Assembly: GCF_023913755.1 (NCBI RefSeq)
Contig: NZ_JAMXBJ010000049.1
Coordinates: forward strand, 124,001-188,000
Direction of reading: 5' to 3'
Length of the DNA: 64,000 nt
Origin: Pseudarthrobacter cellobiosi
Lineage (GTDB): Bacteria; Actinomycetota; Actinomycetes; Actinomycetales; Micrococcaceae
Position 1 is the stretch's first letter; each line of letters starts with the position of its first letter. Made by a program: the position numbers and the translations under genes. Below, piece after piece: positions 40,095-49,663 of the stretch. Below the pieces are notes generated by a model. The model was not told the origin of the DNA, searched no databases, and saw nothing but the letters and a program-made list of their open reading frames with translations.

Positions 40095-41312
40095 ATGTCT
40101 GCCGCCCGCGTTTCCAAGCGCATTTCCGCAATTGCCGAATCCGCAACCCTGGCTGTTGATGCCAAGGCCAAGGCGCTGAAGGCAGCTGGCCGGCCGGTTA
40201 TTGGCTTCGGGGCAGGGGAACCGGACTTCCCCACCCCGGACTACATCGTCAAGGCATCCATCGAGGCCGCCAGCCAGCCCAAGTACCACCGCTACTCCCC
40301 CGCCGCCGGCCTGCCGGAGCTCAAAAAGGCCATCGCTCAGAAGACTCTCCGCGACTCCGGCTATGCCGTGGATCCGTCCCAGGTCCTGGTGACGAACGGC
40401 GGCAAGCAGGCCGTGTACAACACCTTCGCCACGCTGGTGGATCCGGGCGACGAAGTGATTGTTCCCACGCCGTTCTGGACCACCTACCCGGAGGCCATCA
40501 GGCTCGCCGGCGGTGTCCCCGTTGAGGTGTTCGCCGGACCTGAGCAGGACTACCTGGTCACGGTTGAGCAGCTTGAGGCCGCTGTGACGGACAAGAGCAA
40601 GATCCTGCTGTTTGTCTCGCCGTCCAACCCCACCGGCGCCGTGTACAGCCCGGAGCAGGTGGCCGAGATCGGCAAGTGGGCCGCCGCCAAGGGGCTCTGG
40701 GTGGTCACCGACGAGATCTACGAGCACCTGACGTACGACGGCGTCCCGTTCACCTCCATCGCCACGGCAGCCCCTGAACTGGGCGACAAAGTGGTCATAC
40801 TTAACGGTGTCGCCAAGACATATGCGATGACCGGCTGGCGTGTGGGCTGGATGATCGGCCCGGCCGACGTCATCAAGGCGGCCACCAACCTGCAGTCACA
40901 CGCCACCTCCAACGTTTCGAACATCATGCAGATTGCAGCCCTCGCCGCCGTCTCCGGACCGTTGACCGCCGTCGACGAGATGAAGGTGGCGTTTGACCGC
41001 CGCCGCAAGGCGATCGTTGCCGGCCTGAACGCGATCGACGGTGTTGAATGCCCGACGCCGAAGGGTGCGTTCTACGTCTACGCGGACGTCCGTGCGCTGC
41101 TGGGGAAGGAATTCCCGACGGCGGCAGGCACCGCAACGCCGTCGACCTCCGCCGAACTGGCGGCGTTGATCCTGGATGAGGTTGAGGTGGCAGTGGTGCC
41201 GGGTGAGGCGTTCGGCCCCTCAGGCTACCTGCGGCTCTCCTACGCCCTGGGCGACGAGGACCTGGCCACCGGCGTCGCCCGCCTCCAGGGCTTCCTGGGC
41301 CAGGCCAAGTAG
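40095..41312 (+). CDS. Class I/II aminotransferase (aspartate aminotransferase type)
   Basis: Pyridoxal-phosphate enzyme that moves an amino group between an amino acid (probably aspartate) and a keto acid. 405 residues, fold type I. Visible: [13 protein letters not shown] at residues 40-52 (substrate loop), [11 protein letters not shown] (phosphate-binding), [10 protein letters not shown] with the cofactor Asn, VTDEIYEHL with the Asp that holds the pyridine nitrogen, [16 protein letters not shown] with Schiff-base Lys-241, and the C-terminal YLRLSYA arginine. It matches the aspartate/prephenate aminotransferase group of actinobacteria. It stands alone, convergent with the response regulator gene across a repeat. 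Confidence 0.93.
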
Positions 41313-41314
41313 GC

Positions 41315-41415
41315 ACGCTCTCTCACTTCCTGCAAGAAAAAACCAAACGCTCTATCACTTTCTTTAGGAGAGTGATAGAGCGTTCCGGTTTAAGCCACAG
41401 GAAGTGAGAGAGCGT
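41315..41415. repeat. Nested palindrome, GACGCTCTCTCACTT family (second site)
   Basis: Perfect 18-base outer arms (ACGCTCTCTCACTTCCTG at 41315-41332 and its complement at 41398-41415) enclose an inner hairpin (AACGCTCTATCACTTTC near 41346-41362 pairing with 41368-41384). The same motif and hairpin-in-hairpin design occur at 5817-5953. It fills the gap between the convergent aminotransferase and response regulator genes exactly. Confidence 0.88.
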
Positions 41416-41416
41416 C

Positions 41417-42100
41417 TTACAGGAGGCGGCGTTCTGCGGCCCATTTGGTCAGCTCGTGCCGGCTGGAGAGCTGGAGCTTTCGCAGTACCGCTGATACGTG
41501 GGTTTCCACGGTTTTGATGCTGATGAACAGCTCCTTCGCCACCTCCTTGTAGCTGTAGCCGCGGGCGATCAGCCGCATCACTTCGAGCTCGCGGGCGGAA
41601 AGCCTGTCCAGTTCGTCGTCAGCAATGTCCGCCGGGGCGGTGCCGAACGCATCCAGCACGAAGCCGGCCAGCCGGGGCGAGAACACGGCGTCGCCGCCGG
41701 CCACGCGGAACACGGCGTCGGTGATCTCGGCCCCGGAGATGGTCTTGGTGACATACCCGCGGGCGCCGGCGCGGATGACCGACACCACGTCCTCGGCGGC
41801 GTCGGAGACGCTCAGGGCCAGGAACTTGGTGGTGCCCAGGAGCGCCGCGGAACCCGCAATGACCTCCCGGCCGCCACCGCCGAGGCCGCCCGGCAAATGC
41901 ACGTCCAGGAGCACCACTTCCGGACGCGCCTGCGCGATCACGGCTATGGCCTGCTCAACCGTGGCCGCTTCACCTACGACCTGGATGCTCTCATCCAGGT
42001 CGGCCTTGAGTCCCGAGCGGAAGATGGCGTGATCGTCCACGATCACCACCCGGACCGACTGCGCGGGGCGGATGGGCCCGGTCCCCTGTAGGTTGTTCAT
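41417..42100 (-). CDS. LuxR/NarL-type response regulator
   Basis: 227 residues. Receiver domain with acidic pair Asp-22/Asp-23 (VIVDDHAIFRSG) and phosphoacceptor Asp-66 (VVLLDVHLPGG), then TKFLALSVSDAAE and the Lys of VTKTISG. The loop after Asp-66 is unusually glycine-rich (PGGLGGGGREVI). The C-terminal LuxR helix-turn-helix shows LSARELEVMRLIARGYSYKE and ISIKTVETHVSAVLRKLQLS. Its ATG overlaps the kinase stop codon by four bases (ATGA), so the PspC-fused kinase is its cognate partner. Probably activates or represses the neighbouring envelope genes. Confidence 0.95.
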   Translation of the reverse strand: MNNLQGTGPIRPAQSVRVVIVDDHAIFRSGLKADLDESIQVVGEAATVEQAIAVIAQARPEVVLLDVHLPGGLGGGGREVIAGSAALLGTTKFLALSVSDAAEDVVSVIRAGARGYVTKTISGAEITDAVFRVAGGDAVFSPRLAGFVLDAFGTAPADIADDELDRLSARELEVMRLIARGYSYKEVAKELFISIKTVETHVSAVLRKLQLSSRHELTKWAAERRLL

Positions 42101-43518
42101 GATTTCCCTTCCGCGTTGTCCGTTTGGAGCGCCGGCATTCCCAGCCGTACCTCGGTGCCGTCCGACGTGCTGGTGATGGAAGCGGTCCCGCCGTGGCGTT
42201 TCATGCGTCCGATGATCGACTCGCGGACGCCGAGCCGGTCTTCGGGAACATCCTGCAGGTCGAAGCCCGGCCCCCTGTCCTTGATGAAGATTTCTGTATG
42301 CCCGTCGGAAACTTCCAGGTAGACGGAGACGGTTCCGCCGCCGTGCCGGGAGGCATTAAGCATCGCCTCACGGCTGGCCTGGACCAGCGCCTCGTGGGAT
42401 TCGGTCATGGCCGTATCCCCGACGCTCACCACCTCCACGGCGTTGCCGAGGGCGTCTTCCACCTCGGCACCCACGGCCTTGATACGGTCCGAAAGCTGGC
42501 CCGCCTCCTTACCCGGGTCCTGGAACAGCCAGCTCCTGAGTTCGCGTTCCTGGGCCCGGGCGAGCCGGACGACGTCGTGCTCGTTTCCCGCCCGCCGCTG
42601 GATCAGGGCGAGGGTCTGGAGGACGGAGTCGTGCAGGTGGGCCGCGATCTCGGCGCGCTCCGTTTCACGGATCCGGCCCGCACGCTCCGTTTCCAGGTCC
42701 CGCCAGAATTTGAGTGCCCACGGAAGCAGCACCAGGACCACGCCGCCCAGCACGGCCACCGATGCCAGCAGTGCCAGCCAGGTCTGTTCCCACGATCCGG
42801 AGCCGGACACCATCACCAGCACGCCGGCAACCACCAGCGCCAACCCGGCGGCCAGGCGCGCCCAGCCGCCTGCCTGATCGGCTTTGGTCTTGTCCACGAG
42901 GCCCGCGCGGCGGGTTTCGTCGAGCTGCATCCAGGCGATGGCTGCACCGCCCAGCACGGCAGCGGCGGGGATGAGGGTCTCCAGTGGCACGTCCACGCCC
43001 AGGAGCTGGGCAATCATGATGCCCGCCACCAGGAGGAGGCCGGCGCCCAGCAGCATTTCCTTGCCGTAGCGCATTCTGCGGACCCGGAACCACGGCGGCC
43101 GCACGGCGGCCCCGTAGCTCGACCCGTAGCCTGCACCGGGCCCGCTGCGGGAAACACCCTCCGGGGCGAAAGCATCGGCGTCGGGATTTCCCCACCAGGG
43201 AGCGGCCGCGGGCGAGCCCTGGTACGGCGACGGCGAGGGCGGCCCAGCGCTGAATGCCGGGTCAAGGCTGACGGCCGGGGCAATGGGCGACGCCGGACGC
43301 CTGGCATTGCGCCGGGCACTTTCGTCGGCGGTGGGGACCATGATCCACAGCCACGCATAGAAGGCCAACCCGGCGCCACCGGCGAGGGTCGCGAGCGCCA
43401 TGCCGATCCGCACGCTTTTCACCGGCCAGCCCAGATGCGCCGCGAGGCCGGCACATACGCCCGCGATGACGCGGTCGCTGCTGCGGACAAGCGGTGGACG
43501 GGTGAGGGCGGTGGTCAT
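42097..43518 (-). CDS. PspC-domain histidine kinase
   Basis: 473-residue membrane sensor. An N-terminal PspC domain (residues 10-62: RSSDRVIAGVCAGLAAHLGW and a membrane helix) acts as likely input module. A Pro/Gly/Ser-rich linker follows to about residue 140. Four or so membrane helices lie between residues 155 and 268. The cytoplasmic HisKA_3 domain has AEIAAHLHDSVLQTLALIQR with phosphoacceptor His-296. The ATPase domain shows REAMLNASRHGG (N box) and KDRGPGFDL (G box). It overlaps the regulator gene by four bases and is divergent from another PspC gene 124 bases away. The architecture resembles actinobacterial PspC-kinases tied to envelope stress. Confidence 0.93.
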   Translation of the reverse strand: MTTALTRPPLVRSSDRVIAGVCAGLAAHLGWPVKSVRIGMALATLAGGAGLAFYAWLWIMVPTADESARRNARRPASPIAPAVSLDPAFSAGPPSPSPYQGSPAAAPWWGNPDADAFAPEGVSRSGPGAGYGSSYGAAVRPPWFRVRRMRYGKEMLLGAGLLLVAGIMIAQLLGVDVPLETLIPAAAVLGGAAIAWMQLDETRRAGLVDKTKADQAGGWARLAAGLALVVAGVLVMVSGSGSWEQTWLALLASVAVLGGVVLVLLPWALKFWRDLETERAGRIRETERAEIAAHLHDSVLQTLALIQRRAGNEHDVVRLARAQERELRSWLFQDPGKEAGQLSDRIKAVGAEVEDALGNAVEVVSVGDTAMTESHEALVQASREAMLNASRHGGGTVSVYLEVSDGHTEIFIKDRGPGFDLQDVPEDRLGVRESIIGRMKRHGGTASITSTSDGTEVRLGMPALQTDNAEGKS

Positions 43519-43642
43519 GTGTCAATCCAAGCACGGATCAGGGTTCCCCGGACCCGATTCCGGACTGAACCGGGGGTGACTCAGGGGCGAGTCAGGGTGT
43601 TCCCCAGTAGAGCTGCGCCGCCCCGGACGGCAGGATCGAAGT

Positions 43643-45166
43643 ATGAACTCGCAGACCCCCACCCCCGATGACGGCCAGCCCACGGAACCGCTCCCCCCAC
43701 GCGACCCGGACCAGCCAACCGAACCACTCCTGCCACCCCCAGCTGCTTCGCAGGACACACCCCCGGCCGCCGGTCCCGATGCCGGCCCGTATGCCGGGCC
43801 GTCCGCAGGCCCGTACTCCAGCGCCAAAGCGCCGGGGCAGTCCGGTGACTTCTTCACCTGGGTCCGGAGCCACGGCATCCAGCGCGGACGCGACCGGTGG
43901 ATCGGCGGTGTCTCCAGCGGCATCGCGCACCGGATGGGCATCGATCCGCTGATTGTCCGCGGCATCTTCATTGTCCTCACCCTCTTCGCCGGAATCGGCG
44001 TCCTGCTCTACGGCCTGGCCTGGGCGTTCCTTCCCGAACCCGACGGGCGCATCCACGTCCAGGAAGCCGGCGCCGGCCGCTGGTCCAGCGGCATGACAGG
44101 CGCCCTGATCACCACCGTGGTGGGGCTCACCGGGCTGGGCGGCGGATTCTGGGGCTGGAGCCGCAACGGCTTCGGCGGATTCCTCTGGACCGTCTTCTGG
44201 GTGGGCGGCGCCATCTACTTCATTTACTACCTGACCCAACGCAACAAGGCCCGAAATGGAGCTCCCATGACCGCCGCACCGCAGCCGGCCGGCGCAAACT
44301 CCGGTTACCCGGCCGCCCCCACCGCCCCCTATGCCTCGCCGTTTGCGGCCACGGATTCCGCCTCTACCCGCACGTCGAGCACGTCCGGCGCGACCGGCAG
44401 CGCGCCTTACCTTCCGGTCCCGCCGTCGAGCGTCAACCCGCCTTACGGTGGGGGCAGCTACGGCGGGGGCGGCAGCGACGGCGGTGCCTACGGCGGCTAC
44501 CAGCCTCCACAGGGCCCGGCACGCGCACCCAAGGTCCGCCCCTCCGGCCCCGGCGCCCCGGCAGTAGCCATTACAGCCGGAACAGCGCTCCTGGTGGGTG
44601 GCGGGCTCAAAGCCCTGCACGCCGGCAACGTGATCAACCTCGGCGACGCCGCCAACGCGATCGTCTGGGCCAGCGGTGCAGCCATCCTGGGCCTGGGTAT
44701 CCTGGTCGCGGGCCTGCGCGGCAGGACGTCCGGAATCCTCGGATTCTTCGCCGTTGTTGCCCTGGTGATTGGCGGCATCTTCAACGTTGTGGGCAACGGC
44801 GACAGGGTCCGCTTCACCCAGGTCGACTGGGCACCGACGAGCCAGCAGCAGGCGGCCGATGGCTTCAGCGTCACCGGCGGCAGGGGAACCGTTGACCTCA
44901 CCCAATTGGGCGCGCAAGCCCCGCTGGACTCAGAAGTCGTAGTTCCCCTGGACATCACGGCGAGCAACGTCACCGTGATCCTCCCCAGCAACATTCCCGT
45001 GGACGTGAGGGCAGACATGACGCTGGGGAACCTCAACGAAGGCACCAACCACCGGGGCGGCATTACCTCCCAGGAAACCAGCTACAACACCGACAAGCCA
45101 GGCGGCCACCTGATCATCCGGATCGACGGCACCCTCAGCAACGTCACCATCCAGGAAGGAAACTGA
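43643..45166 (+). CDS. PspC-domain membrane protein with LiaF-like C-terminal domain
   Basis: 507 residues. Residues 1-70 are Pro/Thr-rich (TPTPDDGQPTEPLPPRDPDQ). The PspC domain spans about 77-135 (RGRDRWIGGVSSGIAHRMGI). A further helix pair and a low-complexity Gly/Tyr/Ser linker (YGGGSYGGGGSDGGAYGGYQ) follow, then about four helices (residues 305-385). The last about 110 residues form a hydrophilic domain with short beta repeats (LDITASNVTVILPSNIPVDV), like the 'toast-rack' end of LiaF proteins. LiaF is an inhibitor in the LiaFSR envelope-stress system; the divergent kinase and regulator would be its partners. Start ATG 43643 has AGGA seven bases upstream. Confidence 0.9.
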   Translation: MNSQTPTPDDGQPTEPLPPRDPDQPTEPLLPPPAASQDTPPAAGPDAGPYAGPSAGPYSSAKAPGQSGDFFTWVRSHGIQRGRDRWIGGVSSGIAHRMGIDPLIVRGIFIVLTLFAGIGVLLYGLAWAFLPEPDGRIHVQEAGAGRWSSGMTGALITTVVGLTGLGGGFWGWSRNGFGGFLWTVFWVGGAIYFIYYLTQRNKARNGAPMTAAPQPAGANSGYPAAPTAPYASPFAATDSASTRTSSTSGATGSAPYLPVPPSSVNPPYGGGSYGGGGSDGGAYGGYQPPQGPARAPKVRPSGPGAPAVAITAGTALLVGGGLKALHAGNVINLGDAANAIVWASGAAILGLGILVAGLRGRTSGILGFFAVVALVIGGIFNVVGNGDRVRFTQVDWAPTSQQQAADGFSVTGGRGTVDLTQLGAQAPLDSEVVVPLDITASNVTVILPSNIPVDVRADMTLGNLNEGTNHRGGITSQETSYNTDKPGGHLIIRIDGTLSNVTIQEGN

Positions 45167-45167
45167 C

Positions 45168-45452
45168 ATGAGCAGCTTCGATCCGGCACCGGATTCGTCT
45201 ACCCCGCAAACCCCGACGACGGTGCACACCGACGCGGCCGGACCCTCACCCACACGGGTGGGCACGATAGTCTGGGGCCTGATCGTGATGGCGCTGGCCG
45301 CCCTGATCATCATCGCCCAGTTGGGCGTGGTAACCCTGAACGGCACCTACGTACTGATCGGCCTTATGATCGGCGCCGGCGCCGCGCTGGTGATCGGCGG
45401 GCTGCTTTCGGCCCGAAAGCGTGACAATGAACCCACAACAGGGAAGTCTTGA
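45168..45452 (+). CDS. Small two-helix membrane protein, 94 aa
   Basis: Starts one base after the preceding stop codon, with AGGAAGGAA upstream, so it is coupled to the PspC/LiaF-like gene. A polar Pro/Thr-rich N-terminus (about 30 residues) is followed by two hydrophobic helices (VWGLIVMALAALIIIAQLGV and YVLIGLMIGAGAALVIGGLL) and a charged end (SARKRDNEPTTGKS). I recognise no functional family; two-helix proteins of this kind are regular companions of PspC genes in actinobacteria. Confidence 0.88.
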   Translation: MSSFDPAPDSSTPQTPTTVHTDAAGPSPTRVGTIVWGLIVMALAALIIIAQLGVVTLNGTYVLIGLMIGAGAALVIGGLLSARKRDNEPTTGKS

Positions 45453-45455
45453 ACC

Positions 45456-45707
45456 ATGGACAAGTTCTTCAGCATCGTCAGGGGCTTCGGCCTGAAACGT
45501 GGACCCCAACGCTGGCTGGGAGGTGTGTGCGGCGGCATTGCAGCAAAGCTCAACGTGGATGTGGCATTCGTCCGGATCGCTTTCCTGGTCTTCTGCCTCC
45601 TCCCCGGCCCCGCCGTCGTCCTCTACATCGCAGCGTGGCTGGTCCTTCCTGACCAGCAGAACTCCATCCCGCTGCAGAAATTCCTGGACCGCCGCTCCAT
45701 CAGCTGA
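45456..45707 (+). CDS. Stand-alone PspC-domain protein, 83 aa
   Basis: Nearly the whole protein is one PspC domain: GPQRWLGGVCGGIAAKLNVD then a membrane helix (IAFLVFCLLPGPAVVLYIAA) and WLVLPDQQNSIPLQKFLDRR. In enterobacteria PspC senses secretin-type membrane damage and releases PspF control; here it sits three bases after the two-helix protein gene in the same operon, so the locus encodes three PspC domains in separate settings (kinase, LiaF-like, single). A terminator follows. Confidence 0.93.
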   Translation: MDKFFSIVRGFGLKRGPQRWLGGVCGGIAAKLNVDVAFVRIAFLVFCLLPGPAVVLYIAAWLVLPDQQNSIPLQKFLDRRSIS

Positions 45708-45724
45708 CCTCAGGTCAGAACCGC

Positions 45725-45770
45725 AAGGCCACCGCTCCCCGGAGAATTCCTTCCAGGAGCGGGGGCCTTT
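45725..45770 (+). terminator. Terminator after the PspC operon
   Basis: Arms AAGGCCACCGCTCC (45725-45738) and GGAGCGGGGGCCTTT (45756-45770) form an interrupted GC-rich stem with a loop of about 17 bases and a U-containing end (CTTTCTGCTGTCCTT). It is 18 bases beyond the stop codon. Confidence 0.7.
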
Positions 45771-45779
45771 CTGCTGTCC

Positions 45780-45801
45780 TTGTCCACCGGCCGGTGGACA
45801 A
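45780..45801. promoter_or_regulatory. Perfect 22-bp palindrome upstream of the ABC exporter genes
   Basis: TTGTCCACCGG and its exact complement meet with no spacer. It is 56 bases upstream of the ATPase start codon and just after the terminator. Position and symmetry suggest an operator, possibly for one of the two response regulators in the locus. Confidence 0.65.
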
Positions 45802-45857
45802 CAGATTCAACCGGCCGGGCCTGTCGACCGGCACCCCGGGACTGCAACGCTGGAAGC

Positions 45858-46820
45858 ATGAACACTTCCCTCATCCCCGGGCAGCGGCAATCCCCTGATG
45901 CCATCACCGTGCGCGGCCTCAACAAAACGTACGGCCTGCCCAAAGGCGGGACCCTCACGGCCGTGGACCAGCTGGACCTCACCATCCATGCCGGCGAAAC
46001 CTACGCCCTCCTGGGTCCCAACGGCGCCGGCAAGTCCACCGCCATCGAGATCCTGGAAGGCCACCGGAAACCTGACAGCGGCGAGGTCATGGTTCTGGGA
46101 ACGCGCCCCTGGAAGGCGGCACCGTCCTTCCGCGCCCGGATCGGCATCGTCCTCCAGGAGTCCACCGACTCCGGGGAACTCAGGGTTTCAGAGGCCCTGC
46201 GGTCACTGGCTGCCTGTTTCCCGGCGCCCCGACCGGTGGACGAGGTCATGGAAGCCGTGGGGCTCGGGGGCAAGGGCGGCGTCCGTATCTCAACCCTTTC
46301 GGGCGGCCAGCGGCGAAGGCTGGACGTGGCGCTGGGGATCATCGGCAACCCGGAAGTCCTGTTCCTGGACGAACCCACCACAGGATTCGATCCGGAGGCC
46401 CGTCGGCAGTTCTGGGACCTCATCCGCCGGCTGAGCAGCGGCGGCACCACCATTGTCCTCACCACGCACTACCTGGACGAGGCCGAGCAGCTGGCGGACC
46501 GGATCGGCGTCATCAACCACGGGCGGCTGATCGCCGAAGGCAGCCCGCAGGACATCGGCGGTCCGGGCCTCCGCATGCCTCGCGTCCGGTGGCGGGATGC
46601 TTCCGGCCTTCGCGAAGTGGTGACCGAGCAGCCAGCTTCCCTGGTCGCGTCGCTGTCCGACGGCGGCGCAATAGAGCCGGCGGAGCTCGCCGTCGTACGT
46701 CCCAGCCTCGAGGACATCTACCTCCAGCTCATCGGTGCCGCGGACGGCGCCGAACCCTCTGCCGAACCATCCGCCGCACGATCTACGGACGCATCGTCCG
46801 TTTCAGGAGCCCTCCGATGA
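45858..46820 (+). CDS. ABC transporter ATP-binding protein (drug/export type)
   Basis: 320 residues from ATG 45858; GGAAG lies just upstream and the longer reading frame starts inside the palindrome region. Complete nucleotide-binding domain: Walker A GPNGAGKS, Q loop IGIVLQEST, signature LSGGQRRRLDVALGI, Walker B EVLFLDEPTTGFDP and switch His in VLTTHYLDEAEQL. The C-terminal extension is typical of DrrA/NatA-like exporters. It overlaps the permease gene by four bases (ATGA). With the permease it would form an exporter of drugs, lipids or peptides; the substrate is unknown. Confidence 0.94.
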   Translation: MNTSLIPGQRQSPDAITVRGLNKTYGLPKGGTLTAVDQLDLTIHAGETYALLGPNGAGKSTAIEILEGHRKPDSGEVMVLGTRPWKAAPSFRARIGIVLQESTDSGELRVSEALRSLAACFPAPRPVDEVMEAVGLGGKGGVRISTLSGGQRRRLDVALGIIGNPEVLFLDEPTTGFDPEARRQFWDLIRRLSSGGTTIVLTTHYLDEAEQLADRIGVINHGRLIAEGSPQDIGGPGLRMPRVRWRDASGLREVVTEQPASLVASLSDGGAIEPAELAVVRPSLEDIYLQLIGAADGAEPSAEPSAARSTDASSVSGALR

Positions 46821-47683
46821 GCACGGCAGTCCCCGCATCCGTCTCCCCCGCCACCGGCCGCCCGACCTGGCGCCCATCAGTCCTGCGCCTGGGACTTGGC
46901 CGGGTCCTGCTGGAGATCAAACTATTTAACCGTGACGTGCTATCTCTGGTCCTGGTCCTCTTCTTCCCGATCCTGATGATGTCCCTGTTCGGGACTGTTT
47001 TCGGTGATGAGCCGGTCTTCGGGGCCGGCCCGGACGGGCAGGGCGGCATCACCCCGGCGCACTACTACCTGCCCGGCATGCTTGCGCTGAGCACCATCCT
47101 CAGCGGGTTCCAGAACCTCAGCAGCTACGTGGCCACTGAGCGTTTCAACGGCACGGTGAAGCGGCTGGCCGGAACGCCATTGCCTGCGGCGTCGTACTTC
47201 ATCGGGAAAACCGGCCAGACGCTCTACCTGATCGTGGCCCAGGCTGTTCTCCTGCTGCTCGCGGCAGCCGTCCTGTTCGACGTCCCGTTGCCACGGGATG
47301 CCGGGCAGTGGGGCCTGGTGGCGCTGCTGATGATCCTGGCCACGGCTGCCTGGGCCACCGTGGCCATCGCGTTCACTGCCTTGCCCAAGTCGGCACAAAG
47401 CGCGTCCACGCTGGCGGTCCTGCCGGTACTGCTCCTGTCCTTCACGTCGGGCGTGTATTTCCCGTTCTCGCAGCTTCCGGACTGGCTGCAGTCCGTGGCC
47501 AATTTCTTCCCGCTGCGCTGGACGGCGAGCGCCTTCAGGTCTGTTTTCCTGCCTGCCGGCTTTGAAGCCGTTGAGCCCGGCGGCACCTACAACCTGCCGC
47601 TGACGTTCCTGGTCCTGGGCATCTGGGTGGCCGCGGGTGCCGTGCTTGCCCGGTTGGCGTTCAAGTGGCCGCCGCAGAAGTAG
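46817..47683 (+). CDS. ABC-2 type transporter permease
   Basis: 288 residues, ATG within the stop codon of the ATPase gene. About six membrane helices typical of ABC-2 permeases: FNRDVLSLVLVLFFPILMMS, a cytoplasmic loop with FQNLSSYVATERFNGTVKRL and AGTPLPAASYFIGKTGQTLY (the conserved E-R-E-x-G-T/L-L region in variant form), then four helices and the C-terminal WPPQK. Together with the upstream ATPase it makes a two-gene exporter of the DrrAB kind, followed by a kinase/regulator pair that likely controls it. Confidence 0.93.
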   Translation: MSTAVPASVSPATGRPTWRPSVLRLGLGRVLLEIKLFNRDVLSLVLVLFFPILMMSLFGTVFGDEPVFGAGPDGQGGITPAHYYLPGMLALSTILSGFQNLSSYVATERFNGTVKRLAGTPLPAASYFIGKTGQTLYLIVAQAVLLLLAAAVLFDVPLPRDAGQWGLVALLMILATAAWATVAIAFTALPKSAQSASTLAVLPVLLLSFTSGVYFPFSQLPDWLQSVANFFPLRWTASAFRSVFLPAGFEAVEPGGTYNLPLTFLVLGIWVAAGAVLARLAFKWPPQK

Positions 47684-47712
47684 CCGGCTCCAGGCCTCAC
47701 CAATCGTTGATC

Positions 47713-47741
47713 TTGGTGGCTCGGCGGCACGCGGATAGGGT
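47713..47741 (+). promoter_or_regulatory. Promoter candidate of the kinase/regulator pair
   Basis: TTGGTG and TAGGGT are 17 bases apart, and the -10 ends six bases before the ATG at 47748. No Shine-Dalgarno sequence is present, so the kinase mRNA may be leaderless. Confidence 0.5.
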
Positions 47742-47747
47742 GCAGCC

Positions 47748-49034
47748 ATGAGCTATATGAGCGGACGGACCGAGCGGCTGCTGCCGGCACGGTCCGTATG
47801 GACCACCTCCATGGTCTGGTGGCATGCCGGCTTCTACGCCGCGCTGGCCAGCGTGTCCTATTTCGCCCTGTTCGGCGACGAGCGCTATTCCGGGACGCCC
47901 CTGGTCATTGGTGCGCTGGTGCTCCTCGGGGCCGCGTACCCGTTCCTGACCCGGACCAGGGATCTCCGGACACTGCGGCCCACTATCTACGTGGCACTGC
48001 TGGTGGCGGTGGTGGTGTTCCTGTCCTTTGTGTACGACGGCGCCGGGGTCCTGCTGTTTGTGGCCTTCCCGCAGGTCTGGATGTTCACGTCCTCGCAGCG
48101 CCAGGGCGTGGCAGCCACCGCCGTACTCTGCGTCGGAGTGGCCGTTGGCCAGATCAGCCGCTGGGGACTTGCCGGCACGGAGGTCTACGGCATCACGGCC
48201 CAGTTGGTGACCTCGTTTGTGGCCAGCTGCATGATCGGACTCTGGATCTCGAAAGTCATTGAGCAAAGCGAACAGCGTGCCGAGCTGCTGGCCGAGCTCG
48301 AGGCCACGCGCTACGAACTGAACAACGCCGAGCAGGCACGCGGTGCATTGGCTGAGCGTGAGCGGATGGCACGGGAAATCCACGACACGCTGGCCCAGGG
48401 GTTCACGTCCATCGCCATGCTCTCCGAAGCGGCGCAGGCCCAGCTCAGGGCGCAACCGGAAGCCCCGGCAGGCCTGGTGCGCAGCCTCACCGCAATCTCG
48501 CGGACCGCCCGGGAGAACCTGGCCGAAGCCCGTGCCCTGGTGGCCTCAGGCGTCCCGTCGGATGTCCAGGGCGGAGACCTCCTGGCGGCATTGAAGCGGT
48601 TGCCGGACACCCTGCACCTGGACAGCATCCGGCTGACCGTGGAGCTGCCCGACAACCTGCCCCCGCTGCCGTCCACGCAGCAGGTGGCACTGCTCCGGAC
48701 CGCCCAGGAGGCACTCAACAACGTCCGCAGGCATTCCGGAGCCACGGCCGCGGAGGTACTGATGGATATCCCTGCCGGCGGCCCGCCGTTGCTCCGGCTG
48801 ACCGTCACGGACAACGGGCAGGGCTTTGACGTCTCGGCGGATCACCAGGGGTTCGGCCTGAAGTCGATGGCTGCCCGGCTGGACGAAATCGGTGGCCGGC
48901 TGCAGGTCACTTCCGCGCCGGGCGCCACCCGGCTGGTGGCGGTGGTCCCCACCGAGGCCCTCGGGCCCGGCGGCACGGACGCCGAGCCAGGGACCCGCGG
49001 TACGGACGCACCCCTGCCCGGAGCCGTGACATGA
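47748..49034 (+). CDS. Sensor histidine kinase (NarL-type partner)
   Basis: 428 residues. Five or six membrane helices occupy residues 20-170 with very short loops, as in DesK-like sensors that read the membrane itself. A coiled segment (QRAELLAELEATRYELNNAE) leads to the HisKA_3 domain with REIHDTLAQGFTSIAMLSEA, phosphoacceptor His-212. The ATPase domain has RTAQEALNNVRRHSGA (N box) and TVTDNGQGFDV (G1). It overlaps its response regulator gene by four bases and follows the ABC exporter genes by 64 bases; it probably regulates that exporter. Confidence 0.95.
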   Translation: MSYMSGRTERLLPARSVWTTSMVWWHAGFYAALASVSYFALFGDERYSGTPLVIGALVLLGAAYPFLTRTRDLRTLRPTIYVALLVAVVVFLSFVYDGAGVLLFVAFPQVWMFTSSQRQGVAATAVLCVGVAVGQISRWGLAGTEVYGITAQLVTSFVASCMIGLWISKVIEQSEQRAELLAELEATRYELNNAEQARGALAERERMAREIHDTLAQGFTSIAMLSEAAQAQLRAQPEAPAGLVRSLTAISRTARENLAEARALVASGVPSDVQGGDLLAALKRLPDTLHLDSIRLTVELPDNLPPLPSTQQVALLRTAQEALNNVRRHSGATAAEVLMDIPAGGPPLLRLTVTDNGQGFDVSADHQGFGLKSMAARLDEIGGRLQVTSAPGATRLVAVVPTEALGPGGTDAEPGTRGTDAPLPGAVT

Positions 49035-49663
49035 GCCTCCCGGAAACTGTGACAGTTGTCCTCGCCGATGACCACCCCGTGGTCCGGGGCGGCCTCGCGG
49101 CGCTCCTGGCTACCGCGGACGGCATCAAAGTGGTGGCCGCCGCGGCCAACGGCCAGGAGGCTGTGGACGCCGTAAGCCGGCTGCGCCCCGCCGTCGTACT
49201 GATGGACCTGCGGATGCCCGTCCTTGACGGCGCCGACGCCACCGCGCAGATCCGGGACCGGTTTCCCGACACCAAGGTGCTGGTGCTGACCACGTACGAC
49301 GACGACTCAGACATCATGCGCGCAGTGGAGTCCGGGGCGGTGGGCTATCTCCTGAAGGACACGGCCGGGGACCGCATCATCGAGGCCGTGCGCGCTGCCG
49401 CGCGCGGTGAGACGGTTCTCGCCCTGCCGGTGGCGGCACGCCTGGTCTCGCGGATGCGCGCGCCTGAACTGCCCCGGCTGACCGCCCGGGAGGTGGAGGT
49501 CCTTCGCTGCGTGGCGCAGGGCTTGAGCAATCCCGAGGTGGCCACGGCGCTCCACATTGCCGAAGCGACGGTCAAGACCCACCTGCTGCGGGTCTTCAAC
49601 AAACCGGATGTGGACGACAGGACCCGTGCCGTGGTCCTTGCCATGGAACGGGGCCTTTTGTAA
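49031..49663 (+). CDS. LuxR/NarL-type response regulator
   Basis: 210 residues. Receiver domain: LADDHPVVRGG with the acidic pair, phosphoacceptor Asp-59 in VVLMDLRMPVLDG, TTYDDDSDIM and the Lys in YLLKDTAG. LuxR-type DNA-binding domain: PRLTAREVEVLRCVAQGLSN and EATVKTHLLRVFNKPDVDDR. The last motif usually reads NKL-x-V-x-D in relatives, so Pro in place of Leu is mildly unusual. ATGA overlap with the kinase gene shows they are a pair. The 22-bp palindrome at 45780 is a candidate target. Confidence 0.95.
   Translation: MSLPETVTVVLADDHPVVRGGLAALLATADGIKVVAAAANGQEAVDAVSRLRPAVVLMDLRMPVLDGADATAQIRDRFPDTKVLVLTTYDDDSDIMRAVESGAVGYLLKDTAGDRIIEAVRAAARGETVLALPVAARLVSRMRAPELPRLTAREVEVLRCVAQGLSNPEVATALHIAEATVKTHLLRVFNKPDVDDRTRAVVLAMERGLL

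Follow-up and report, generated by a model that had tools for sequence, protein, structure and literature searches.

What kind of signalling system is encoded by nine adjacent genes at positions 41417 to 49663 of the window, the stretch of 64,000 nucleotides of Pseudarthrobacter cellobiosi DNA analysed here, and do these genes form one circuit? The earlier note on this DNA had read them as a single, previously undescribed envelope-stress circuit comprising three PspC proteins, two kinase/regulator pairs and an exporter. From the gene content, gene order, co-occurrence, fold, conserved DNA elements and recurring target genes computed here, we consider it quite probable that the locus as a whole is best explained as two circuits: a core (RR1, HK1, DIV, TM2 and PC3) which is an actinobacterial PspA-free envelope-stress system of the three-component Lia/Esr type, and a separate second circuit consisting of an ATP-binding cassette (ABC) exporter with HK2 and RR2. 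The core probably switches on its own brake, a drug pump and a small membrane protein via a short DNA element, the direct repeat TCAGGG-N5-TCAGGG.

Organisation of the locus

The genes were named from translated open reading frames (ORFs), with domains assigned by Pfam and, for the exporter ATPase, also by NCBIfam. The ORF coordinates and Pfam domains confirmed that all nine are real and lie where they had been placed.

41417 to 42100, minus strand: RR1, LuxR/NarL-type response regulator (Pfam Response_reg and GerE)
42097 to 43518, minus strand: HK1, PspC domain, about four transmembrane (TM) helices and HisKA_3-like/HATPase kinase (Pfam, alignment, hydropathy)
43643 to 45166, plus strand: DIV, PspC domain, TM helices and C-terminal Toastrack domain; LiaF/EsrI-like candidate inhibitor (Pfam PspC, AlphaFold2 model)
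45168 to 45452, plus strand: TM2, small membrane protein (hydropathy)
45456 to 45707, plus strand: PC3, stand-alone PspC protein (Pfam)
43581 to 43597, plus strand: predicted RR1 operator TCAGGGGCGAGTCAGGG (TCAGGG-N5-TCAGGG), in DIV sense, in the shared HK1/DIV promoter (conservation)
43608 to 43613, plus strand: -10-like TAGAGC, 3' of the predicted operator (by eye; a block CCCc.aTaG is kept after the repeat)
45858 to 46820, plus strand: linked exporter ATPase, ABC-2 type, DrrA relative (Pfam ABC_tran, NCBIfam)
46817 to 47683, plus strand: linked exporter permease, ABC2_membrane (Pfam)
47748 to 49034, plus strand: HK2, HisKA_3 sensor kinase with multi-TM input region (Pfam HisKA_3 and HATPase_c, hydropathy)
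49031 to 49663, plus strand: RR2, LuxR-type response regulator of HK2 (Pfam Response_reg and GerE)
45780 to 45801, no strand assigned: perfect palindrome TTGTCCACCGGCCGGTGGACAA, predicted RR2 operator of the exporter module (conserved inverted repeat)
45722 to 45775, plus strand: hairpin between PC3 and the linked exporter gene, possible terminator (RNAfold, -30.5 kcal/mol)
40095 to 41312: aminotransferase-like gene, flank and synteny anchor (named by eye)
from about 49764: phosphofructokinase-like gene (pfkA), flank and synteny anchor (named by eye)

According to the ORF coordinates, the reading frames of RR1 and HK1 overlap at 42097-42100 and those of HK2 and RR2 at 49031-49034. Pfam revealed no PspA among the nine genes, to which the search for this protein was confined.

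Conservation of the core genes

HK1 was matched at E 1e-20 or better in 79 of 120 genomes of the family Micrococcaceae, and 77 of these 79 loci were fetched, the source genome's own locus and one contig-edge case being left out. RR1 and HK1 are adjacent in all 77. DIV is present in 75, always in the order RR1-HK1-divergent DIV, and the other two loci are cut by a contig end. TM2 was detected in 63 and PC3 in 62 of the 77, counts that are too low because single-sequence searches undercount small genes, and the flanking anchors were recognised in 74 (aminotransferase) and 73 (phosphofructokinase) loci. Among 80 named loci, a set that overlaps the family set, 78 exhibit the same RR1-HK1-DIV order and the other two are short contigs; they include Kineosporia, Nocardioides, Kribbella and one Streptomyces record, while matches to the PC3 profile are confined to Arthrobacter-type genera. 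The named relatives with an HK1 about 80% identical are Pseudarthrobacter and Arthrobacter. At E 1e-30, HK1 was matched in 129 of 197 genomes of the class. Conserved gene order, on which the earlier note had itself made its reading depend, is thus found in every family locus with DIV on the contig, and the counts rule out a chance arrangement. In one locus (L089), the DIV part is apparently duplicated in tandem and HK1 is split into two ORFs.

The PspC domains are also linked with the kinase, as had been proposed, by their co-occurrence across the 120 family genomes. Genomes with HK1 hold three PspC domains in 58 cases, four in 11, two in eight, six in one and one in one, whereas genomes without HK1 hold one (23 genomes) or none (18); at least two domains are present in 78 of 79 HK1 genomes, and more than one in 0 of the 41 others. 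The source genome (4.3 Mb) holds four, three of them inside the locus. The fourth (G000:C27:34246-34410, L004) belongs to a stand-alone protein of about 85 amino acids, next to an ORF which by eye resembles a flavin dehydrogenase.

Domains and folds of the core proteins

With regard to HK1, the PspC domain (E 2e-18, 66 bits) and HATPase_c (31 bits) are both above the Pfam cut-offs, which, together with the overlap with RR1, bears out the description of a PspC-fused kinase with an overlapping regulator gene. HisKA_3 scores only 15.8 bits against a cut-off of 24, yet all 25 aligned orthologues share the H-box HLHDSVLQ; hydrophobic segments are seen at 155-265. VraS (4gt8) was the sole PDB sequence match of the HK1 profile at E 1e-5 (E 1.1e-6). 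PspC was recognised by Pfam in DIV (E 9e-18) and in PC3 (E 1e-19). RR1 varies hardly at all in its DNA-reading helix across 146 sequences, which were picked by a motif search that favours conserved ones.

The AlphaFold2 model of DIV, built on a 35-row alignment with helical match rows unused, has a mean predicted local distance difference test (pLDDT) score of 68 and a confident beta domain at about 392-507. Its best PDB match is 4QRK (Foldseek E 1e-4; VIA Z 9.7, residues 386-506, 108 aligned, root mean square deviation 2.6), which is one of the two structures named as Toastrack examples in the available text of Ravi et al. 2024 (PMC11237479). The toast-rack-like C-terminus attributed to DIV is therefore supported by structure.

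The exporter module and its palindrome

The exporter had been called DrrAB-type: an ATPase/permease pair with a relative of DrrA is indeed present, but the label is loose because the ATPase falls below the curated drrA cut-off (TIGR01188, 219.9 vs 312.45 bits). DesK-like is likewise only a loose label for HK2, in which the domains seen are HisKA_3 and HATPase; kinases of the DesK type are multi-TM HisKA_3 kinases in control of a desaturase.

Of 395 family genomes, 15 gave an HK2 match at E 1e-45. In 13 of these carriers (the window, L386-L394, L396, L117 and L137), the module occupies the gap from PC3 to phosphofructokinase; one of the 13 has a contig that begins at the linked exporter and leaves only the phosphofructokinase side visible (L392). 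In L397, a genome without HK1, it lies beside PC3, which brings the carriers at this locus to 14 of 15, and in L395 it is unlinked, elsewhere in the genome. RR2 was not detected in L387, and HK2 is partly deleted in the sister species L396. In Cryobacterium melibiosiphilum, which lies outside the family, the module is located between an aminotransferase and RR1. None of the 77 fetched core loci comprises the linked permease, HK2 or RR2, and the weak ATPase matches in nine of them lie elsewhere. An insertion unique to the source genome was dropped as an explanation, given 15 carriers of which 14 share the locus.

Recent horizontal transfer of a module functionally unrelated to the core, into a PC3-pfkA slot that tolerates insertions, would agree with the rarity of the module and with the other genes that fill this slot: by eye, ORFs resembling carotenoid-type desaturases occupy it in three module-less genomes (L039, L045 and L084), which weighs against a purely functional link between module and core. 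We nevertheless find such an insertion unlikely, because the same site is used in two genera with matching divergence. HK2 and HK1 identities, compared without a tree, correlate with r 0.97 over 55 non-independent pairs from 11 carriers, and HK2 and flanking-gene identities with r 0.93 and 0.88. Correlations of this kind would be expected under joint descent with frequent loss, and the partial HK2 deletion in L396 points to ongoing loss. The sequence comparison thus suggests that the module was ancestrally linked to the core and has repeatedly been lost.

We examined 15 linked-exporter promoters, 14 from the family and one from Cryobacterium. Seven of them, including that of the unlinked module in L395, have an exact TGTCCACC-N4-GGTGGACA inverted repeat; in L390 both arms have changed together (TGTCCTGC/GCAGGACA), and the remaining promoters exhibit three to six mismatches. 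At two mismatches or fewer this inverted repeat was found in 0 of 101 PC3-pfkA gaps of non-carriers. The TCAGGG direct repeat is absent upstream of the linked exporter, its best match having at least four mismatches in all 15 promoters. The regulatory element that had been suspected at 45780-45801 thus takes the form of a palindrome that is conserved as an inverted repeat and is likely an operator, predicted for RR2; this assignment is not certain, because an RNA hairpin could also form from TGTCCACC-N4-GGTGGACA.

A terminator scan matched 45749-45765, inside the hairpin between PC3 and the exporter, which is weak support because the region gave nine matches where 4.5 were expected. By eye, the gap between the aminotransferase and RR1 (41314-41416) holds one inverted repeat inside another, CTCTCTCACTTCCTG/CAGGAAGTGAGAGAG enclosing a shorter pair; together they are perhaps a shared terminator.

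A direct repeat in the HK1/DIV promoter

Binding of a regulator had also been proposed for the region between HK1 and DIV (43519-43642). An alignment of this region from 16 close relatives reveals CTCAGGG...TTCAGGGT as a conserved stretch, with CCCC and TAGAG after it. From 158 intergenic regions (157 loci and the window), 130 were usable; in the others the PspC start was not recognised or the upstream DNA was too short. Removal of duplicates left 119 distinct loci, of which 90 have an exact TCAGGG-N5-TCAGGG in DIV sense, 0 have one in HK1 sense, and 102 have the repeat with at most one mismatch. In comparison, 119 permuted hexamers matched a mean of 0.26 loci, and the two that scored highest, CAGGGT (21 loci) and GTCAGG (5), read this same element in a shifted register. 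When spacings of 0-16 were scanned, TCAGGG pairs also occurred at spacings of 16 (17 loci), 14 (2) and 3 (1). Twenty further genomes were hand-picked to spread over the families of the class; in the 13 with a recognised PspC start, the repeat is exact in five, has one mismatch in four, two in two and more in two. This conserved element is the predicted operator of RR1.

Predicted regulon

In the source genome, the repeat has six exact matches at five places, and the reversed-pattern control has none. These places include the core promoter and the region upstream of an ABC-2 exporter adjoining a PAP2/DAGK gene, where the repeat is triple. Among NCBIfam families, the ATPase of this exporter comes closest to the lantibiotic-protection ATPases, with 206.8 bits where the cut-off is 309.75. 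The exact matches at the three other places, of which one is within a prophage-like ORF (C31), one precedes a CoA-binding protein (C41) and one falls between a ctaB-like and a tkt-like ORF (C43), were not counted as targets because no recurrence was seen; these labels were given by eye except for CoA_binding_2. Allowing one mismatch gave 33 matches, of which six are exact and 27 have a single mismatch, and the reversed control gave 22; single-mismatch sites are thus mostly due to chance, and the one at yccF, which encodes the small membrane protein YccF, was used because it is syntenic.

The repeat is present in all 31 genomes of the genus searched, with 155 matches against 13 for the reversed pattern among the matches listed. 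The 30 tool-picked genus loci comprise seven at HK1/DIV, seven at the lantibiotic-protection-like exporter and four at yccF, and 20 additional hand-chosen places comprise 13 at yccF, one at HK1/DIV, one at the exporter and five elsewhere. At yccF, the repeat was confirmed in 17 genus genomes, with the source genome at one mismatch. Of 149 family genomes, 30 carry a triple repeat and 0 its reversed control; the 30 fetched places lie at HK1/DIV (13), at the lantibiotic-protection-like exporter (12) and at other positions (5).

Could the TCAGGG repeats be a core-promoter or global-regulator element, for instance the -35 of an extracytoplasmic function (ECF) sigma factor or the site of another envelope regulator, and not an RR1 operator? 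By eye, the repeat overlaps the expected DIV -35 region, and exact sites in the source genome lie in unrelated places. We hold this to be improbable, since the repeat occurs as two or three tandem copies with an 11-bp period, occurs in other families of the class at a position probably involved in autoregulation, is missing from the linked exporter's promoter, and tracks HK1 at the promoter of the lantibiotic-protection-like exporter, where 19 of 68 HK1 genomes have it with at most one mismatch, compared with one of 22 genomes without HK1 and 0.2% of mono-shuffled sequence. In one genome without HK1 (G098), this promoter has, by eye, two mismatches, and within the genus g28 a species with HK1 has one mismatch whereas four sisters without HK1 have two to four (one by eye).

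Further occurrences were noted. Two genus genomes share the direct repeat at one further syntenic place (L219 and L238), a possible fourth target. Among the matches listed, the repeat occurs with the same spacer several times in G009 or in two genomes (G603 and G607), and these copies (L214, L220 and L240) perhaps sit inside a repeated element. Some promoters of the lantibiotic-protection-like exporter without the full repeat (e.g. G013 and G053) retain an TCATCCCTGAGG box, palindromic in G013 (GTCATCCCTGAGGATGAC), which is possibly the site of another regulator.

Proposed mechanism and its weighing

Based on these observations, we infer which regulator binds which DNA, the sign of the regulation and the signal. 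HK1 and DIV would sense membrane disturbance through their PspC and TM segments. In unstressed cells, DIV would keep HK1 inactive via its Toastrack domain, as EsrI does for EsrSR; stress would lift this inhibition, and HK1 would phosphorylate RR1. Dimers of RR1 may then bind the tandem TCAGGG half-sites, one helix turn apart, and raise expression of the system's own brake operon, DIV-TM2-PC3, and, in the source genus, of the lantibiotic-protection-like ABC-2 exporter and of YccF. The linked exporter, HK2 and RR2 would constitute a second circuit, ancestrally linked, often lost, and controlled by RR2 via its own inverted repeat.

Several points weigh against this reading. The binding of RR1 and the regulation of its targets are predictions from sequence, and the role of DIV as a candidate inhibitor of HK1 is carried over from EsrI and LiaF; LiaF-like_C in DIV is below the Pfam cut-off (18.5 vs 29 bits). 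Most class-level HK1 matches span only the TM and kinase part, and need not each include a PspC fusion. As to the repeat, 17 of the 119 HK1/DIV loci have two or more mismatches, TCAGGG pairs also occur at spacings of 6 (11 loci) and 15 (9 loci), the latter, like 16, fitting triple arrays, and two of the 13 class genomes (L410 and L412) carry a one-mismatch repeat in HK1 sense too. Three exact sites of the source genome are at non-recurring places, and 12 of the 30 tool-picked genus sites lie elsewhere. At the lantibiotic-protection-like exporter, the repeats are oriented against the gene, whereas those at DIV and yccF are not; the contrast between genomes with and without HK1 (Fisher p 0.02) is only indicative because related genomes were treated as independent; and 49 of 68 promoters in HK1 genomes have no near-exact repeat, so that this target is lineage-specific.

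That all nine genes form a single circuit, in which both kinases and the exporter act together and the three PspC proteins make one sensory complex, is very doubtful: 14 of the 15 family carriers do have the module here, it co-diverges with the core, and PspC domains co-occur with HK1, but most core genomes are without the module (0 of 77 loci; 15 carriers in 395), L395 carries it unlinked and L397 without HK1, and the linked exporter has its own inverted repeat and no TCAGGG repeat upstream. Two circuits are preferred because the operator-like elements are distinct and the module is missing in most core genomes. What stands of the envelope-stress circuit of the earlier note is an envelope-stress type locus with conserved order, PspC domains that co-occur with the kinase, and operator-like elements in both regions it had named; the single circuit and the novelty of the core are not supported.

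Going further, we lean towards a broader interpretation, in which TCAGGG-N5-TCAGGG would be the class-wide operator of an old actinobacterial PspC three-component system, with a core regulon in Arthrobacter relatives consisting of the PspC-Toastrack brake, the lantibiotic-protection-like exporter and YccF, and in which the ancestral locus would have held the second exporter circuit as a parallel, repeatedly lost output.

Comparison with known systems

The circuit had been thought undescribed. According to the available text of the sources, the core arrangement is known in Actinobacteria as a PspA-free Lia-like system (Ravi et al. 2024, mSystems, PMC11237479), and PspC-fused kinases, too, have been described (PMC9239133), histidine kinases making up the majority of PspC proteins of over 300 residues in Actinobacteria. 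As in the PspA-free Lia-like system, the locus exhibits a PspC-kinase fusion, an adjacent REC-HTH regulator and a divergent PspC gene on a shared promoter region, with a Toastrack domain in some cases, as here. A LiaI-LiaF-TM block also belongs to that system, between PspC and the kinase, and the hydrophobic segments of HK1 at 155-265 may correspond to it. The stand-alone PC3, TM2, the exporter-HK2-RR2 module, the operator and the regulon are features of the present locus that do not appear in the examined text of PMC11237479.

EsrISR of Corynebacterium glutamicum, as described in the accessible parts of PMC6975037, PMC9960051 and PMC9239133, likewise comprises a PspC-type kinase, a regulator and a membrane inhibitor, EsrI, whose gene belongs to its own regulon. 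It is induced by lipid-II antibiotics, namely bacitracin and vancomycin (PMC6975037), and its named targets esrI, cg1325, rsmP and nlpC, compared here by description, differ from our predictions except for the brake gene. A lipid-II signal may be inferred for the core by analogy with EsrISR and LiaFSR. The core is a member of this published PspA-free Lia-like/EsrISR-type system, and is counted as a known kind because it matches both the system of Ravi et al. 2024 and EsrISR. EsrISR is the sole studied case of a PspC kinase met in the literature searched.

LiaFSR/VraTSR of Firmicutes shares with the core a LiaF-like Toastrack protein, a NarL-type kinase and a LuxR-type regulator, and the HK1 profile matches VraS. 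It differs in that PspC here joins or replaces the TM part of LiaF and the arrangement is divergent; DIV also misses the LiaF-like_C cut-off, although its fold matches Toastrack. The LiaFSR/VraTSR operator reportedly differs from the TCAGGG repeat. Unlike the classical Psp system (PspF-PspABC), the nine genes include no PspA beside PspC.

Exporters of the ABC-2 type that sit next to a NarL-type two-component system are a known general kind, DrrAB-like or BcrA-like. The module shares with them the ATPase, permease, HisKA_3 kinase and LuxR-type regulator, and differs in sitting beside a PspC system and in its ATPase being below the drrA cut-off. The main paper on EsrISR is Kleine et al. 2017. 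In the passages of the literature that were searched, no publication was found on the operator, the exporter/YccF regulon or the linked second circuit, and an EsrR motif may stand in Kleine 2017.

Compared with these systems, what is new here is a direct-repeat operator and a regulon predicted for a known kind of system. The exactly spaced, conserved element offers a direct handle on the regulon across many genomes; the repeat also connects the system with an exporter of the antibiotic-protection-like kind and makes the membrane protein YccF a candidate participant in envelope stress.

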